Source: Clostridia bacterium
Lineage (GTDB): Bacteria > Bacillota > Clostridia > Christensenellales > Aristaeellaceae
DNA length: 36,455 nucleotides
Direction: 5' to 3'
NCBI GenBank assembly: GCA_024404245.1
Contig: JAKSQH010000017.1
Span: 1-36,455, forward strand
Positions within the stretch are counted from its first letter, which is position 1. Each line of letters starts with the position of its first letter. Shown here piece after piece: positions 11,366 through 35,908 of the stretch. A program made the translations under genes and the position numbers. Under the pieces are notes generated by a model. That model had not been told where the DNA came from. It did not search any database and saw only the letters and a program-made list of their open reading frames with translations.

Positions 11366-12826
11366 ATGATTGAACTGATCAAAGCTTCTTCCGCGGATCT
11401 GCCTGTTGTATGCGCTCTGTACAGGCGTGTCGCGGAGCATATGGTTGAAACAGGGCTCACGCAGTGGATCTGGGGCGTTTATCCTTCCGAAGCGGTGCTG
11501 CGTGAAAGCATCGAAGCCGGCGAGCTGTATCTCGCCCGTGAGGATGGCGCAATCAAGGCCTGCGTTGCCGTCCTGATCGGCCGTCAGGATCCGGAATACG
11601 AGGATCTCAACTGGAAGTTCGGTCAGAAGTACGGCCTGTTCCACAAGCTCGCTGTCGATACGGCGTGGCAGGGTCATGGCGTCGGCGGCCGGGTCCTGGA
11701 CAAGGTTGAGGAAATGCTGACCGAAGCCGGGTGTGAGGCGCTTCGCTGTGACACAAGAAAAGACAATAAACACGCGCTTTCGCTGTATTATCGCCGCGGT
11801 TTCGCGCCTGTTGAACCAATGACATGGGATCACGCGCCGGGCAAGGAATATGTGGCGCTGGAAAAGCCGCTCACGGACACATGTCCCATGTTGCCCGTGC
11901 GTATGCAGCCGGCGTTCCGCGCCGGAAAGCTCACCCCGTGGGGCGGCAGCAGGCTGCGGTCACGGTTCGGGAAAAACATACCGTGCGTGCCCACGGGTGA
12001 AAGTCTGGAAATCAGTTGCATTCCCGGGCTGGAAAGCACCGATGTCATGGGGGTGAAGCTTCCGGAGCTGATCAGCCGCTACGGGGAGCGTTTCGCCGGG
12101 CGTTACGCGCATGGGGCTTTTCCGCTGTTGCTCAAGCTGATTGACGCTTCGGAAAGCCTCAGTGTGCAGGTTCATCCGGATGACGGATACGCGAAGGAAC
12201 ATGAAAACGGCAAGCTCGGCAAAACCGAGGCGTGGCTGATTCTGGACGCGCCCGAAAACGGTGAACTGGTTTACGGTATTATGCCGGGCACGGATACGGC
12301 AGCGTTGCGTGCCGCGTGTGAAGCCGGAAGCGCCGTATCTCCCCTGCTGCGCCGCGTGCGTGTCAGACCGGGGGATGTCTGTTTTATCCCGGCGGGTTGC
12401 GTGCACGCGATCGGCGCCGGCATCATGCTGTACGAAATACAGCAGTCGTCGGATATCACCTACCGTTTCTATGACTGGGACCGTACGGACGCGCAGGGCA
12501 ACAAGCGTGAGCTTCACCTCGATAAAGCCCTGGATGTGACAGACCTTACCTTCTGCCTGAATCCGGTTTCCGCGGATGAAGGTGACTGTGTCCGCGTACT
12601 GAATGAAAAATTCTTTACGCTCGATCTGATCAACGTCCGTGATTCCGTTCAATTGCCGCCGGTTCGGGATTTCGGTCTGCTCACGGCACTCACCGGCGAT
12701 CTGAAGCTGTCCTGGTCCGGCGCGTCAATGAACCTCTCAGCGGGCGAAAGTCTCTTCCTTCCGGCTTCCTGCCCGGCGCTCACGCTGACCGGAACGGGTC
12801 GCGCCGCGCTGAGCATGCCGAACTGA
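11366..12826 (+). CDS. GNAT N-acetyltransferase fused to class I mannose-6-phosphate isomerase
   Basis: 486 residues in one open frame. Residues 1 to about 168 are a GNAT domain: FHKLAVDTAWQGHGVGGRVLDKVEE carries the acetyl-CoA pyrophosphate loop (cited in part) and RKDNKHALSLYYRRGF is the classic motif B region. Residues about 178-486 are a type I phosphomannose isomerase: LTPWGGSRL, then the zinc ligands Gln268 and His270 (SVQVHPDD), Glu288 (GKTEAW) and His347 (AGCVHAIGAG), followed by YEIQQSSDITYRFYDWDR. The PMI half should interconvert Man-6-P and Fru-6-P; the acetyltransferase substrate is unknown. I see no stop, frameshift or internal ribosome site at the junction, so a real fusion is likely, though an assembly joint cannot be excluded. 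It follows dut by 18 bases. Confidence 0.85.
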   Translation: MIELIKASSADLPVVCALYRRVAEHMVETGLTQWIWGVYPSEAVLRESIEAGELYLAREDGAIKACVAVLIGRQDPEYEDLNWKFGQKYGLFHKLAVDTAWQGHGVGGRVLDKVEEMLTEAGCEALRCDTRKDNKHALSLYYRRGFAPVEPMTWDHAPGKEYVALEKPLTDTCPMLPVRMQPAFRAGKLTPWGGSRLRSRFGKNIPCVPTGESLEISCIPGLESTDVMGVKLPELISRYGERFAGRYAHGAFPLLLKLIDASESLSVQVHPDDGYAKEHENGKLGKTEAWLILDAPENGELVYGIMPGTDTAALRAACEAGSAVSPLLRRVRVRPGDVCFIPAGCVHAIGAGIMLYEIQQSSDITYRFYDWDRTDAQGNKRELHLDKALDVTDLTFCLNPVSADEGDCVRVLNEKFFTLDLINVRDSVQLPPVRDFGLLTALTGDLKLSWSGASMNLSAGESLFLPASCPALTLTGTGRAALSMPN

Positions 12827-28093: not shown

Positions 28094-28113
28094 GAACACG
28101 TTCCTCCTTTTTG

Positions 28114-28317
28114 TTACTTTTCAACCTTGATTACGGCATCCGGGCACATCCGCGCGCAGAACGCGCAGCCGATGCACTTGTCCTGTTCCGTGATGGCAAT
28201 GGGATGATAGCCCTTTGTATTGATCTCCTTGCTCAGAGCAAGCAGATGCTTCGGGCAGGCATCGGCACACAGACCGCAGCCTTTGCAGATCTCACGGGCG
28301 ATGGTCAGCTTGGCCAT
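28114..28317 (-). CDS. 2[4Fe-4S] ferredoxin-type delta subunit of the 2-oxoacid oxidoreductase
   Basis: 67 residues. Two clusters are marked by CKGCGLCADACP (near residues 11-22) and CIGCAFCARMCP (near 48-59). It carries electrons from the ThDP site to free ferredoxin. As the first gene of the operon it has GGAGG eight bases before the ATG and a promoter with TTGACG and a perfect TATAAT. The 20-odd bases to the alpha start suggest strict co-expression. The size and position match the delta subunit of VOR/KOR complexes rather than a free ferredoxin. Confidence 0.93.
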   Translation of the reverse strand: MAKLTIAREICKGCGLCADACPKHLLALSKEINTKGYHPIAITEQDKCIGCAFCARMCPDAVIKVEK

Positions 28318-28354
28318 GTTTCCGCCTCCTTCCTGATCTTTCGGGTTAAAAGCT

Positions 28355-28384
28355 ATTATACGCTTTGGCGTTTCCGGCCGTCAA
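28355..28384 (-). promoter_or_regulatory. Predicted promoter of the 2-oxoacid oxidoreductase operon
   Basis: Minus strand TTGACG (28379-28384), 18-base spacer, TATAAT (28355-28360), 37 bases upstream of the ferredoxin start. Confidence 0.8.
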
Positions 28385-28485
28385 TGTCTGAACAAAACGA
28401 AAACAGCATATTTGCCGGCTTATGTTCGTGTTTTGTTCCCTGTATGTACTTTTTATCAATTTGCCGTTCGCCTTTCCGTAAACCG

Positions 28486-28494
28486 TGTTATAAT
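28486..28494 (+). promoter_or_regulatory. Predicted extended -10 promoter of the three-domain synthase gene
   Basis: TGTTATAAT (28486-28494), a perfect TATAAT with TG upstream; the -35 region is weak. It implies a leader of roughly 115 bases (to 28618), T-rich, with no conserved gene in it. The 301-bp gap 28318-28618 otherwise holds only this and the divergent operon promoter. Confidence 0.55.
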
Positions 28495-28618
28495 TTTAAC
28501 GATGTGTGCGCGCATCGGCCTGAACATGTTGATTTTATTGATACGGCATATTTTTTGTTCTCCGCTGCGCCCCGCATGCTTTTTTGTCGTGTTTTTAAAA
28601 AGAGACGGGAGGTAGAAA

Positions 28619-31600
28619 ATGAATCCTTTCAATGTAACGGAGAACCGCCGGATTCTGTCTGAAAATCCGAACACCGGAACGCTTTTCAACATCATGCGGG
28701 CATACGGAGATACCCCCGCAGCTCTCTGGCTGGAAAACGGTGAAGAACGTTCCATGTCATTTGCCGGAATGACTGCGCGCGCGGATGATTACGCCGCCGT
28801 GCTCCGATCCCGTGTACCGGAGCGGTGCTGGGTCGCCATCGCCGTGGATACATGCGTGGAATGGCCCGCCGTTTACTGGGGAGCAAGCAGAAGCGGTCAT
28901 GACGTGCTGCTTCTGGACGCCGCCTCATCTGACGAAATGGTCCAGAGTCTGATGGATGACGCCGGGTGTGCGGTGCTGATCACCGCGAAAACGCGCAGGC
29001 TGCCCGCGAAATACCGTCAGATTGCCTTTTCGGACATCATTTCCGCGCCGCATACGGAAAACTATGAACCCGTTCGCGGCAGATACACCGCCATGTGCAC
29101 AAGCGGAACCACCGGACGCAGCCGCGTATTCGTCTATGATGAGGAAACACTCTGCCGTCAGGCGCTCAGCAGCGTCGTCGTGCATGATGAAAACCGGCGT
29201 TTCATCGGTGACGGTCCCCGCCGTTTTCTGGCGTTTCTTCCCTTCCATCACGTGCTCGGTTTCATGGCCAACGTGATCTGGGGCGCCTATCTCGGCATGA
29301 CCAATATTTTCCTGAAGGACCGCACACCGGACAGTATCCGTTCCGCGTGCGCGCATTTCAAGCCGGAACTGGTGGTTGTTGTTCCGCTGGTCGGCACCAA
29401 TCTCTGCCGCGGTCTTGAAAAGGAACTGCGCAAGCAGAGTGTGTTCCGCCGCGGTATGTTCAGGGTCATGAAGGGCTTCAGCCTTGCCCTGCAGACCGTA
29501 GCGCCGGATGCCGGGCTGAACTTCGCCATGAAGAAAATGTTCCGTTCGGTCGACAGCAAGCTGCTCGGTGATGAAATCAAATGTGTGATTTTCGGCGGCA
29601 GTCACGCGCCGAAGGAAGTTCTCCGCACCATGAACGCGCTCGGTTATTATACAACTTCCGGCTTCGGCATGACGGAAACCGCCATCACCAGCTTTGAAAT
29701 GAGCATGTCACTGCGCAAGCGTCTTAGCGGAAGCGTCGGTAAGCCGCTTTCGACAATCGAATACAGGGTGCTGGACGCGGACGGAAATCCCTCCTCCGGC
29801 GGTGAAATGAGTATCCGCGGCTCAAGCATCCATTCCGGGCGGATGAGCGGCGGCAAACTGCTGCCTCCCGATACCGTTGACGGATGGTACGCCACGGGAG
29901 ACATCGTCAGTATGGATAAAGACGGTCATATTTTCATTGAAGGCCGGCTGAAGGATGTCATTATTAATGAATCCGGTGAGAACATCTATCCCGATGACCT
30001 GGAAGACAGCTTCTCCGCCCTGCGCGATGTCGATCAGCTGTGCGTCCTGGGCGTGCAGCGTTCACGCAGGAATCAGAACGAGGATGTCACACTTGTGATG
30101 AATGTCGGCGAGCGTTACGGCGATGACGCGTTCCTGGATGATCTGGCCGACCGGGTCGCCCGCCTCAACGCGAAGCAGCCCGTTTCCCGCAGGCTGAACC
30201 GCACGCTCGTTACAAACACGGCGCTGCCCCTGGTCAACGGCATCAAGGTAAAGCGGATTGAGCTGAAACGCATGCTGGCTGACAACGCTCTGGCCTATAA
30301 GGAGCTTGATCTTCACGCCCGTTCTGTCGGTGCGGAAACCGTTCCCGTCCGCGGAACCGGCAAAGCCGTGCCCGATGAAGAGATCATCGCGAAAGTCCGC
30401 GGTCTTTTTGCCGAAACGCTGGATATTCCGGAAAGCAGTATCTCCGATACCGCCAACTTCGTTGATGATCTGCAGGGCGACAGCTTGCAGGTGCTCAGCA
30501 TGGCCCTGCGCGCGGAAGAGGAGTGGGGCATCACCATTCCCGCGGAAGAATACGGCAGCTGCGCTACGGTCAATGACATGAGCGCGATGATCGCGCATCT
30601 TCTCAGCGGCGAAACGCAGAGCGCCTCCGCCGCCGAACGTGTTCCCGTCAAACCCGTTACGCGTTTTGAGGATACGGAGGAATATCAGCATTTCGTCGCC
30701 CGTCAGCAGGCGCTGATCGGCACGGGCGACAATCCCTACTTTGTCTGCCATGAGTCTCCCCTGCTGGATACGGGCATCATTGACGGTAAGGAAGTGCTTG
30801 AGTTCGGCAGCTACAACTACATCGGCATGTCCGGCCGCAGGGAAGTCAAAGAAGCCGCCAAGGCCGCGATAGACAAATACGGCACAAGTTGCTCCGGCAG
30901 CCGCCTGCTGGCCGGTGAAAAACAGATTCACAAGGAGCTGGAAGCCGCCATCGCCGCGTGGAAGCACACGGAGGACGCCATTGTCTGCGTCGGCGGTCAC
31001 AGCACAAATGTCACTTTCGTCGGCAACTTCTGCGGTAAGAAAGACCTTATTCTGTATGACGCGCTTGCGCACAACTCCATCGAGCAGGGCTGCCGGCTGA
31101 GCGAAGCAACCGCCCGTCCTTTCCCGCACAGCGACATCGGCGCGCTTGAAACGATTCTGAAGGCGCAGCGTTCCTATTACGAAAAGGTGCTCATTGTCAT
31201 CGAGGGCGCCTACAGCATGGACGGCGACATTGCCCCACTGCCTGAATTTGTCCGCGTAAAGAAAGAGTACGGTTGCTTCCTCATGGTGGACGAAGCGCAC
31301 AGCGCCTGTGTCATCGGCAAAAACGGCGGCGGTGTGGATGAGTATTTCGGTCTCGCGCCCGACGATATCGATATCAAATACGGCACGCTGTCCAAAGGTC
31401 TCGGCACCTGCGGCGGTTATCTTGCCGGTAAAAAATGCCTCATTGAGTATCTGCGCTACAACATGCCCGGATTTGTTTTCTCCGTGGGTATTTCTCCCGC
31501 GCTGGCTGCCGCTTCTCTGGAGGCAATCCGTCTTCTGCAGCGTGATCCGTCCATTATGGAAGGCATGCGCACCGCGATCAAAGCCTTTGCCGACAGTGCC

Positions 31601-31876
31601 AGACGGCGCCGCCTGGATATCTGTCTCGCGGGTGAAACCGCCGTACTGCCGGTTCTGGTCGGCAGGGATGAAGACGCGTGGCTGCTGTCCAACGAACTGA
31701 AAAAGCGCGGTGTCAGTGTGCCTCCCGCCATGTATCCGGCGGTGCCGAAGGGCAAAGCGAGACTGCGTTTCTGTGTGATCAGCGAGCATAAGCCCGAGCA
31801 GATCGAGCGCGCGCTCGACATTCTGGAGCAGACGGCGAAGGATTTCGGTATTGAACTTCCGCGCCGCGATTACTGA
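28619..31876 (+). CDS. Three-domain acyl-AMP ligase / acyl carrier protein / alpha-oxoamine synthase
   Basis: 1085 residues in one frame, GGGAGG six bases before the ATG. Domain 1 (about 1-570) is an ANL adenylating enzyme: TSGTTGRSR (from 161, with the usual Pro-Lys changed), GFGMTET, GWYATGDIV, GRLKDVIINESGENIYPDDLE and NGIKVKR near the end. Domain 2 (about 588-665) is a carrier protein with the phosphopantetheine Ser622 in GDSLQ. Domain 3 (about 690-1085) is a PLP alpha-oxoamine synthase: SGSRLLAG, His818 (AHNSIEQG), D891-EAHS, and PLP Lys926 in GTLSKGLGTCGGY. By analogy with serine palmitoyltransferase and AONS it should activate a carboxylic (probably fatty) acid, load it on the carrier and condense it with an amino acid, releasing CO2 and giving a 2-amino-3-ketone. 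The amino acid and chain are unknown. It stands alone between two terminators' reach and diverges from the VOR-type operon. Confidence 0.88.
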   Translation: MNPFNVTENRRILSENPNTGTLFNIMRAYGDTPAALWLENGEERSMSFAGMTARADDYAAVLRSRVPERCWVAIAVDTCVEWPAVYWGASRSGHDVLLLDAASSDEMVQSLMDDAGCAVLITAKTRRLPAKYRQIAFSDIISAPHTENYEPVRGRYTAMCTSGTTGRSRVFVYDEETLCRQALSSVVVHDENRRFIGDGPRRFLAFLPFHHVLGFMANVIWGAYLGMTNIFLKDRTPDSIRSACAHFKPELVVVVPLVGTNLCRGLEKELRKQSVFRRGMFRVMKGFSLALQTVAPDAGLNFAMKKMFRSVDSKLLGDEIKCVIFGGSHAPKEVLRTMNALGYYTTSGFGMTETAITSFEMSMSLRKRLSGSVGKPLSTIEYRVLDADGNPSSGGEMSIRGSSIHSGRMSGGKLLPPDTVDGWYATGDIVSMDKDGHIFIEGRLKDVIINESGENIYPDDLEDSFSALRDVDQLCVLGVQRSRRNQNEDVTLVMNVGERYGDDAFLDDLADRVARLNAKQPVSRRLNRTLVTNTALPLVNGIKVKRIELKRMLADNALAYKELDLHARSVGAETVPVRGTGKAVPDEEIIAKVRGLFAETLDIPESSISDTANFVDDLQGDSLQVLSMALRAEEEWGITIPAEEYGSCATVNDMSAMIAHLLSGETQSASAAERVPVKPVTRFEDTEEYQHFVARQQALIGTGDNPYFVCHESPLLDTGIIDGKEVLEFGSYNYIGMSGRREVKEAAKAAIDKYGTSCSGSRLLAGEKQIHKELEAAIAAWKHTEDAIVCVGGHSTNVTFVGNFCGKKDLILYDALAHNSIEQGCRLSEATARPFPHSDIGALETILKAQRSYYEKVLIVIEGAYSMDGDIAPLPEFVRVKKEYGCFLMVDEAHSACVIGKNGGGVDEYFGLAPDDIDIKYGTLSKGLGTCGGYLAGKKCLIEYLRYNMPGFVFSVGISPALAAASLEAIRLLQRDPSIMEGMRTAIKAFADSARRRRLDICLAGETAVLPVLVGRDEDAWLLSNELKKRGVSVPPAMYPAVPKGKARLRFCVISEHKPEQIERALDILEQTAKDFGIELPRRDY

Positions 31877-31887
31877 TAAGCGGATTT

Positions 31888-31922
31888 AAGCGGGCGGGGA
31901 TCGGAATGATCCCCGCCCGCTT
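31888..31922. terminator. Bidirectional terminator between the synthase and mnmG
   Basis: Perfect 15-bp arms (31888-31902 and 31908-31922) beginning AAGCGGGCGGGG, five-base loop. Convergent genes end on both sides. Confidence 0.85.
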
Positions 31923-31928
31923 GTCTGT

Positions 31929-33826: not shown

Positions 33827-35908
33827 TCAGATTCCGTCTCCGGAATTCTGATCAGCCGTACCGTCATTCTCGGGTATATCATAGAACGGAGGAGTATAGT
33901 CTTCGGCATAGGGCTGCTTTTCTTCCGCTATGCTGTGTGTAAAGCCTTCGTCTGTCCGGTAACCGATAATATGCATCTGTATACCGCACAGCAGATCGGG
34001 CTGTACGAAATCGTCGAACGTGAATCTTCCGTGCGCGGTGATCGCGCCGGGCTCCAGCTCATATGAATAGCTGCCGTTGAACTCAACGTCGCCGTATCTC
34101 GTGCACTCGACAAATTCACCGTACTGCGTGAAGCAGGCAATCCTGAAGTACACTTTCGTGACGTACATGTTGCTCACGTTTTTCAGTACAATGCTGATCT
34201 TATTGTTCTTGATCTTCAGTTCCTGAATACGGACAGCGGTATCGTAATCCCCGACATGAATCTGCGCGGAAGTTGCATACCCGCCGTCATTCGTGATGCC
34301 GTGCACCGTTGTGTCGCCCCACGCGCGGCCGCGTACGGAGGGACGGTTGGTCGATCCCTTAACGGTGGCAATGGTTTCATCTTCCGAATACCAGGTCATG
34401 GTCTTGTCAGTCGCGTCGGAAGGCTCAAGCACGGCGGTGATCGTTACGCTCTTGTCCACATCCGTCGAATACTTTCCGCTGCTCATATGCACGCCGGTCA
34501 CAGGCTGAATGATCTTTACCTTTATGGTTCCGCGTACACCGGATCCGTCCGTCGCCGCAGCCGTAACGGTCGCCGTTCCGGCCTTCACACCGTACAGGCG
34601 TCCGTCCTGGTCCACGGTCACAACCTTTGTGTTGTTGCTTGTCAGCTTCACGGAAGGATCTGTTACGTCATCCGGACCGACAACCCAGCTTACATACTGC
34701 TCCGTCAGCACCTCAAACGCGATTTCCTTCTGTGTGAACGTGATACTTGTGGCAGGCTGGATCACCGTCACGCGCGCGGCAGCCTGAACATCCGGGTTCA
34801 CCTTGCTGATGCAGATAATATCACAGGTACCGGCCTTCACGCCGCGCACGGATCCGTTCGCGGATACGGTCGCGATGCTCTCGTCCGAGGACGCCCATGT
34901 CACGCTCTTGTTATTGACATCCTTCGGCAGCACGGTCGGCGTCAGCTGTACATTATGCTTGACCTTGACACTGACCTCCGCCTTGTTCAGCTGAATCGCC
35001 TCCGGCGCCTGCTGCACTTCAATCTGGATGCTGCGGCTCTTCCCGGAACCGTCGGCGGCAGTCGCGCGGATATTGACCCTGCCGCGTTTCACGCCGGTCA
35101 CAAGACCGTTTTCGTCAACAGTCGCGATCCGCGTATCGGACGAGGACCATGTAACATCCTGAATGGACGCTGTATCCGGCTGAACCGCGTAGCCCAGCTG
35201 ACGGCTTCCGCCGACGGGCACGATCTTCTCCGCCGCGATAATATCAATGGCATTCACCGGCATCAGAACCAGCACGTGATACTGCACGCCGACTTCGGGA
35301 TTCTGCACGCTGTACACACGCAGATCACATTCGCCGGTTTTCAGCGGCTTCAGGTTATTCTTGTTTTCTCCCTGCACCTTGATCATTTCCGGATCGGTCA
35401 CTTCCACCGCGAACTTCCGGTTTGACGCGTCCTTCGGCTGGCATGAAGCATTCACAAGGGTATTGTTTCCCATGAGCAGCAGGAGCACGGGATCTTCCGT
35501 TTCCACCGTCAGAAGACCGGCGATCATCGGATCATCCGGCTGGCAGACAGTCAGTTTTTCTTCGTTGACGGTTACTTCGGATACCTTTCTGGCAACCGTG
35601 ACCGTCAGCTCCGCGGTATAAGTGCGCTTTTCCGTTTTCAGTTTCGCCGTTACCTTACCGTTGCCTTTGCTCAGACCGGTAACGGTTCCGTCATCGGACA
35701 CAGCCAGAATTTTTGTGCTCTGGGTGGAATAGGTCAGTGTTCCGTCCGCCTCGGGGTTGCCCTCGCGAAGGAGCGGGATATTCGCCGTTTCGCCCTCAAA
35801 GATCGTAATCCTGGACTGTTCAAATTTGAACACGTCCGCCGCCGACGCGGAAACGGCCGCAAGCAGCAGTACAGCCAGAACAATGAGTATTGTCAGTGTT
35901 TTCTTCAT
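33827..35908 (-). CDS. Secreted protein with multiple bacterial Ig-like (BIG2) repeats
   Basis: 693 residues. The signal peptide is [25 protein letters not shown]. About six Ig-like repeats follow between residues 25 and 560. The best have the BIG2 pattern [46 protein letters not shown], and [21 protein letters not shown] (cited in part: SSD..IATV, G.V.GVK.G). The last 130 residues ([19 protein letters not shown] onward) form a separate, unrecognised beta-rich domain, ending in an acidic low-complexity tail. No LPxTG, transmembrane anchor or SLH domain is seen, so it is probably released or held by other surface parts. Such proteins usually serve adhesion or display. GGAGGTTG precedes the ATG; no convincing promoter was found in 35909-35978. 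Confidence 0.85.

Follow-up and report, generated by a model that had tools for sequence, protein, structure and literature searches.

An adenylation, carrier and alpha-oxoamine synthase fusion in Clostridia: a probable single-chain aminoketone synthase outside the serine palmitoyltransferase clade

In Caulobacter and Escherichia coli BL21, AasR, AcpR and serine palmitoyltransferase (SPT) are separate proteins, and the acyl chain is donated by an acyl-acyl carrier protein (acyl-ACP) (PMC9386255). Here we describe a gene of a Clostridia bacterium (order Christensenellales, family Aristaeellaceae) whose product would unite the corresponding activities: the window, by which we mean the whole 36,455-nucleotide stretch analysed (contig JAKSQH010000017.1 of assembly GCA_024404245.1), carries at 28619–31876 (+) a single intact open reading frame (ORF) of 1085 residues, with the domain order adenylation, carrier, alpha-oxoamine synthase (AOS), hereafter the AL-ACP-AOS fusion. 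The fusion is real, conserved in relatives and not filed under SPT, and its product is probably a self-contained aminoketone synthase leading, with a short-chain dehydrogenase/reductase (SDR), to a sphingoid-like amino alcohol in an envelope lipid.

The parallel with separate genes for a carrier protein and an acyl-ACP synthetase had been drawn in an earlier note, made from the letters of this DNA alone; that arrangement is published, and we inspected it in the BL21 operon. The AasR/CerR/AcpR/SPT set of Caulobacter and BL21 provides the same three activities and a reductase as does the fusion plus an SDR, but it does so with four genes, a FAAL-type ligase and an SPT over cut-offs, and an epimerase-type reductase, whereas the fusion is one chain with another ligase type and an AOS of another clade, and its candidate partner is a classical SDR. 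The fusion is a new domain combination for known chemistry, and near versions are known, because BioWF and RedL exist: RedL, like PigH, is a carrier-AOS type protein, and it has an A domain. BioWF of Corynebacterium amycolatum resembles the fusion in that one chain with an adenylating domain and an AOS makes an aminoketone, and it differs in its BioW-type domain, its coenzyme A (CoA) thioester, its lack of a carrier domain, and its place in the biotin pathway (PMC9544090). TamD, a carrier-AOS protein for which L-serine has been hypothesised as the substrate (PMC4698589), and a Streptomyces KS-AT-ACP-AOS protein (L145) also have a carrier domain followed by an AOS in one chain, but unlike the fusion such carrier-AOS and polyketide synthase (PKS)-terminal proteins contain chain-extension modules or several carriers and stand in a metabolite setting; the nearest AOS sequences to that of the fusion are proteins of these types from Planktothrix and Streptomyces. 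No description of an AL-ACP-AOS fusion was found in the titles and abstract openings searched, mostly outside the subscription literature.

The start codon of the fusion is firm, because a ribosome-binding sequence (GGGAGG, 28607–28612, +) precedes the ATG at 28619 and an in-frame TAG lies upstream at 28613. Residues 1–560 (28619–30298, +) form an ANL adenylation domain, residues 586–660 (30374–30598, +) an acyl carrier domain, and residues 691–1085 (30689–31873, +) an AOS domain of the type dependent on pyridoxal 5'-phosphate (PLP); the Pfam matches all exceed gathering scores (AMP-binding at 27–407, 1e-38; PP-binding at 592–658, 1e-11; Aminotran_1_2 at 725–1068, 2e-44). The phosphopantetheine site of the carrier, Ser622 (codon 30482–30484, +; within LQGDSLQ), is kept in 29/29 rows compared, and the Schiff-base lysine, Lys926 (codon 31394–31396, +; within GTLSKGLG), which aligns with Lys244 of S. 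multivorum SPT, is conserved in 25 of the 26 rows long enough to cover the AOS domain, all but L096. ORF, Pfam and motifs therefore bear out the earlier note, which had placed an ANL domain, a carrier with Ser622 and an AOS with Lys926 in one 1085-residue frame and had named an inactive carrier serine as a possible objection: Ser622 is present. A full-length structure model (predicted local distance difference test, pLDDT, 78.6) matches KBL, SPT and AONS folds, and its domain arrangement is unsure because the predicted template modelling score is 0.48; PLP domains of the AOS family are dimers.

The adenylation domain retains the TSGTTG loop, the GMTET, TGD and GRxKD motifs and Lys543, and it likely adenylates an acid. 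Its profile matches, as well as those of an AlphaFold2 model of residues 1–664 (pLDDT 84), are acyl/aryl-CoA ligases and adenylation-carrier didomains of the type found in nonribosomal peptide synthetases (FadD13, MatB, MenE, McyG A-PCP); acyl-ACP synthetase 8hsy stands among the profile matches listed, at 7e-19. Assignment to the AasR/FAAL family was rejected, since just 70 residues align with BL21 AasR (E 5e-8) and the matches listed, 60 out of 166 and 50 out of 1474, include no FAAL. Between relatives, sequence change is faster in the adenylation domain than in the AOS domain (60% vs. 88% identity between the window and L002; 34% vs. 61% between the window and L090), a pattern that would fit a changing acid and an unchanged condensation step.

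By descent, the AOS domain belongs firmly to a clade that we call RkpG-like/PKS-AOS, “RkpG-like” being our own label for capsule-locus AOS proteins. We placed 54 AOS rows, named anchors among them, in one tree: the fusion and its split forms make up one clade of 19 rows (100/99), which joins the Sinorhizobium meliloti capsule-locus AOS, the AOS proteins of Paraburkholderia, Pseudomonas, Methylobacterium and Acidisoma, and the PKS-terminal AOS domains of Planktothrix and Streptomyces (100/100); SPT rows form a separate clade (100/98). Another tree of the AOS rows gives the same join at 100/98; compared with it, the 54-row tree leaves out L095 and L096 (dead AOS), L156 from B. faecis, and L055, a duplicate of L020, and adds the BL21 SPT, the Methylobacterium AOS and the Streptomyces AOS. 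Approximately unbiased (AU) tests rejected a clade of the fusion with SPT alone (p 0.00027), with KBL (p 5e-129) and with BioF (p 0.00013); a joint clade of the fusion, the RkpG-like group and SPT was not rejected (p 0.3). The domain lies below every cut-off of the NCBIfam equivalogs for AONS, KBL, SPT, ALAS and CqsA: its top score is 340 bits for TIGR00858 (bioF; cut-off 426); it scores 300/640, 269/500 and 230/670 bits for three SPT models, one of which is passed by named or plasmid SPTs, 296/460 for KBL and 154/428 for CqsA. The earlier note had likened the fusion to an SPT system; the AU result and a score of 300 bits against a 640-bit cut-off speak against an SPT identity of domain 3, and the AU tests equally reject the grouping with AONS or KBL that the note had named as a refutation of its proposal.

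Four letters characterize the clade (S. multivorum numbering): Tyr52, Ser79, Asn139 (after His138) and Cys249, all of them present in the window protein; the exceptions are the Streptomyces row L145, with Asp at 139, and the dead L095 and L096, which lack all four. Cys249 occurs in no aligned row outside the clade; Asn at 139 is also seen in ALAS rows, and Tyr at column 52 also in SPT 2x8u and in some SPTs described previously (PMC9304779). The window protein retains the AOS catalytic residues at columns His138, Lys244 and Arg367 (His818, the Asp and His of DEAH, Lys926 and Arg are kept), the roles of Asn52, Ser81, His138 and Lys244 having been described (PMC10196870). It lacks the Val at the Ser81 column that would point to KBL, in keeping with its clade and scores, and it lacks the Lys281 feature of SulA, a cysteate acyl-ACP transferase (PMC9304779): its columns 271–275 read V-F-S-V-G, SulA itself being outside the alignment. 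No particular amino acid substrate is singled out by the active-site letters of the alignment.

The S. meliloti capsule-locus AOS and its Paraburkholderia, Pseudomonas, Acidisoma and Methylobacterium relatives are ~40–46% identical to the fusion AOS, and in S. meliloti and Acidisoma an SDR adjoins the AOS, as in sister genera of the fusion's genus. They differ in lacking a cis adenylation domain (where seen, a PKS supplies the acyl chain) and in having capsule genes nearby, none of which was recognised in the window. We take the S. meliloti AOS and SDR to be RkpG and RkpH from gene order; no annotation names them so. In 4/7 of the RkpG-like/PKS relatives (L144–L147) the AOS lies inside a PKS or directly after one; the S. 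meliloti AOS (L148) follows a 7.5-kb gene annotated as SDR family, presumably RkpA, L179 has no annotation, and Acidisoma L159 has no PKS within the 9 kb read. The fusion has no PKS or fatty acid synthase partner, in cis or adjoining; its neighbours in the window are gyrBA, an oxidoreductase set and mnmG. The rkp-1 region, in which we place the S. meliloti AOS, directs synthesis of a lipid carrier used in capsule export (PMC4881576, PMC7902896).

Because three catalytic parts with conserved motifs share one polypeptide, activation, carrier loading and AOS condensation in a single chain is the natural reading; this part of the earlier note's proposal is supported, whereas a place of domain 3 in the SPT clade is not. 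From the domains, motifs, conservation, clade and, in some genera, SDR linkage, we infer every reaction and substrate, the point at which reduction occurs, and any head group or N-acylation. The ANL domain would adenylate a carboxylic acid with ATP, most likely a free fatty acid, and the acyl group of the resulting acyl-AMP would be passed to the phosphopantetheine arm on Ser622 of the protein's own carrier to give acyl-ACP; the PLP domain would bind a small L-amino acid at Lys926 as an external aldimine, take the acyl group from the tethered carrier and, with loss of CO2, release a 2-amino-3-ketone; and a separate SDR would reduce the ketone to a sphingoid-like 2-amino-3-alcohol that would enter an envelope lipid. 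Serine and a sphingoid-like base are favoured because of the AasR-AcpR-SPT parallel, the rkp-1 lipid carrier and the serine hypothesis for TamD; alanine or glycine, and a secreted aminoketone, are also possible.

In 6/10 fusion-bearing family genomes outside the window's genus (G131, with a gap of 12 bp, G146, G172, G238, G260 and G309), the gene immediately upstream of the fusion encodes an SDR and runs in the same direction, and the window's own genome has an SDR orthologue on another contig (G000, C45, 9295–10095). The earlier note's statement that no ketoreductase is adjacent is thus true of the window but not of the sister genera. KdsR, the 3-ketodihydrosphingosine reductase, is the best NCBIfam model for 3/3 fusion-linked SDRs (180–215 bits), whereas the SDRs beside RkpG-like genes fall to other models. 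The epimerase gene 10 bp after the fusion in L090 was considered as a CerR-like reductase and rejected, as its product passes the galE cut-off. At L132 in the window's genome (9280–12124, +), the SDR gene is followed by one whose 250-aa product belongs to no Pfam family and by another for an SPFH/Band-7 zinc-ribbon protein, and a like arrangement stands beside the SDR in L140.

Several observations weigh against the proposed synthase–SDR route. In the window's genus the SDR gene is not adjacent to the fusion: it is 6 kb away in G196, and in the remaining genomes that were read it lies farther off or on a different contig. Families f21 and f31, which also bear the fusion, give weak SDR matches (28–35%). 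The co-occurrence of SDR and fusion speaks for the route, an SDR at E <1e-60 being found in 16/16 family genomes with a fusion or AOS vs. 1/7 without (Fisher 6.9e-5), but this threshold was picked once the table was known, and the genomes are relatives of one another; at the looser threshold of 1e-30 the association falls to 16/16 vs. 4/7 (Fisher ~0.02). The 400-bit cut-off of the KdsR model (NF049977) is passed by 0/20 genomes and 0/14 controls, including Bacteroides ihuae; fusion-bearing family genomes reach 180–232 bits, and the KdsR label is a hint only, because three family genomes without a fusion contain KdsR-like SDRs with full-length matches at 221–236 bits. A FemAB-like protein, the Caulobacter ceramide-synthase type, was found in 0/13 genomes (controls 2/14); the adenylation loop reads TSGTTGRSRVF, without the Pro-Lys-Gly that usually follows it; 7/23 family genomes in the order sample have no fusion match; and the AL-ACP part can apparently serve something else, because the fusion persists in G181 and G246 although its AOS there is dead.

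It is possible, though in our judgement rather unlikely, that the aminoketone serves in signalling or as a precursor, and not as the start of a membrane lipid: an alpha-hydroxyketone as for CqsA, a pyrazine, or a pyrroline or pyrrole as for RedL, PigH and TamD. The CqsA pathway also uses an SDR, which counts for this route, as do the hypothesised serine use of TamD and the closest AOS relatives on named plasmids, which include PKS-terminal domains (Planktothrix, 49%; Streptomyces KS-AT-ACP-AOS, 47%); it is countered by the standing of the fusion as a lone gene with no recognisable tailoring enzymes adjoining it in the window, by a CqsA score of just 154 of 428 bits, and by the retention of the gene in 18/19 genus genomes, which is unlike typical patchy clusters, though the 7/23 family genomes without a match soften this last point.

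We consider it improbable that the protein is a true SPT joined to its own acyl-ACP synthetase and ACP, so that one chain would hold the whole Caulobacter-type system. The three jobs and the need for a reductase match the BL21 operon of FAAL, epimerase-type reductase, ACP and spt; S. multivorum SPT is the best PDB sequence match (1.2e-62), with an AONS/KBL-type chain next at 4e-62; Ser81 and the Ser before Lys are common with SPT, and a Tyr-Asn-Tyr motif is common with SPT 2x8u; and AU testing tolerates the joint clade with the RkpG-like group. That the fusion and SPT alone are rejected as a clade, that SPT cut-offs are unmet, that Ser79, Asn139 and Cys249 differ from SPT rows, and that the adenylation domain is not FAAL/AasR all argue the other way. 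We give hardly any credence to a biotin- or threonine-type enzyme that would condense pimelate with alanine to AON, or acetyl with glycine: bioF is indeed the highest-scoring AOS model and BioWF a natural adenylation-AONS fusion, but the bioF and KBL cut-offs and AU groupings both fail, an ANL domain and ACP stand in place of BioW, and bioB scores over its cut-off in 0/13 genomes (sub-cut-off matches in 3), whereas 7/14 controls pass. A biotin role was rejected on the bioB counts, the clade and the cut-offs.

A chance or chimeric frame was likewise rejected, as the same frame occurs in many separate assemblies. The fusion is not an assembly accident, because 16/19 genomes of the genus and 22/297 of the order sample have it in full; the genome sets overlap, so that their counts are not summed. 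Of the remaining genus genomes, G014 and G018 possess only the AOS domain, and G007 (71% complete) lacks a match at E 1e-100. Going by GC content, size and habitat, the genus may be close to Aristaeella of the rumen. The 26 order matches at 1e-80 comprise, besides the 22 full fusions, two contig-end fragments (G066, G023), one AOS alone (G097) and one AL-ACP alone (G039). The phylum sample of 398 genomes gave 24 matches: the window's own, two ACP-AOS proteins (G348, with the carrier domain confirmed, and G652), one AL-ACP (G624) and 20 bare AOS proteins at 36–43% identity. A scan of named genome contigs, whose reach is limited to close relatives, found 30 loci, all in uncultured Clostridia or Clostridiales assemblies and, where a host animal is named, from ruminants; 30/30 match from residue 1, 2, 13, 15, 22 or 47 through 1085. 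Among matching plasmid and phage records no other full fusion was found (0/1125 and 0/32, respectively, cover 80% of the protein).

Two family f31 genomes, G181 and G246 (loci L095 and L096), contain a full-length fusion without stops in which the Schiff-base lysine is replaced by Gly, the stacking histidine by Ser, and other residues are lost (dead-AOS fusion at L096 9428–12610, +); no other AOS was found in either at E 1e-12, one genome being 78% complete. The L096 adenylation domain is 34% identical to that of the window, with f21/f31 peers at 33–35%, whereas its AOS is at 35% vs. 55–61% for the peers. The dead AOS may be either decaying or converted to a scaffold; eukaryotic SPT, with its lysine-less subunit, offers a parallel for the latter. 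The natural series of AL-ACP-AOS, ACP-AOS, AOS alone, and AL-ACP with a dead AOS is a test bed for the separation of fused catalytic steps. In three same-genus genomes the AOS domain stands as a gene of its own (L048 7362–8603, +; L049 9345–10574, −; L084 8775–9941, +), with no close AL-ACP homologue in these genomes.

More broadly, and quite tentatively, many gut Clostridia of this order may make sphingolipid-like lipids by a route apart from the known bacterial SPT, in which an SDR works with a single-chain synthase that joins an RkpG-like AOS to acid-activating and carrier domains of its own. If so, this would be, as far as we have found, the first one-polypeptide long-chain-base synthase; one gene of rumen and gut Clostridia would encode the committing step towards sphingoid-like lipids; and Bacteroidota and the host would not be the only sources of sphingoid lipids in the gut. 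Searches with SPT models would miss the gene, because its AOS lies outside the SPT clade and below SPT cut-offs, and the gene would be a ready marker when looking for such lipids. The protein would also be a compact biocatalyst, converting a free acid and an amino acid to an aminoketone, perhaps without CoA.

In the window the fusion looks like a single-gene unit, because a terminator-like hairpin of 17 pairs (31887–31923, +) directly follows it and its neighbours are on the opposite strand: a 67-aa ORF (28114–28317, −), 2-oxoacid:ferredoxin-type oxidoreductase genes, then gyrB and gyrA upstream, and mnmG downstream of the hairpin. The 67-aa ORF recurs beside oxidoreductase genes in L001 and L030; a 183-aa frame with a TTG start (28111–28662), antisense to it, was rejected as a gene. 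No constant partner gene adjoins the fusion across the genus, the most recurrent neighbours being mnmG, a Big_2 protein and an 84-aa ORF. Four genus loci have a gene of ~250–280 aa directly upstream on the same strand (L012 8894–9706, L013 3699–4541, L021 9004–9825, L022 9038–9784), and in family f21 a gene of ~170–224 aa directly precedes the fusion or AL-ACP (L088 7485–7997, +; L090 2–652, +; L092 5832–6506, −); the one copy scanned from each group (L013, L092) has no Pfam match. MATE-type transporter genes directly follow the fusion in L006 (13271–14629, +), L023 (13271–14653, +) and L025 (13337–14626, +), and one directly precedes the AOS-only gene in L084 (7134–8519, +), the copy on which the Pfam assignment was made; such a neighbour could be an exporter or flippase.

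Elsewhere among the AOS sequences, KBL-side domains occur in frames of 809 and 785 aa (L075, L080) with ~420–440 residues before the match, and on a Streptomyces plasmid (L178 3183–6094, +) an ALAS-like AOS gene overlaps an AMP-binding gene. Within the window, one frame at 11366–12826 (+) has a GNAT acetyltransferase domain and, after it, mannose-6-phosphate-isomerase domains, and the 693-aa protein adjoining mnmG (33827–35908, −) contains five Big_2 immunoglobulin-like stretches and has relatives in 25 loci.

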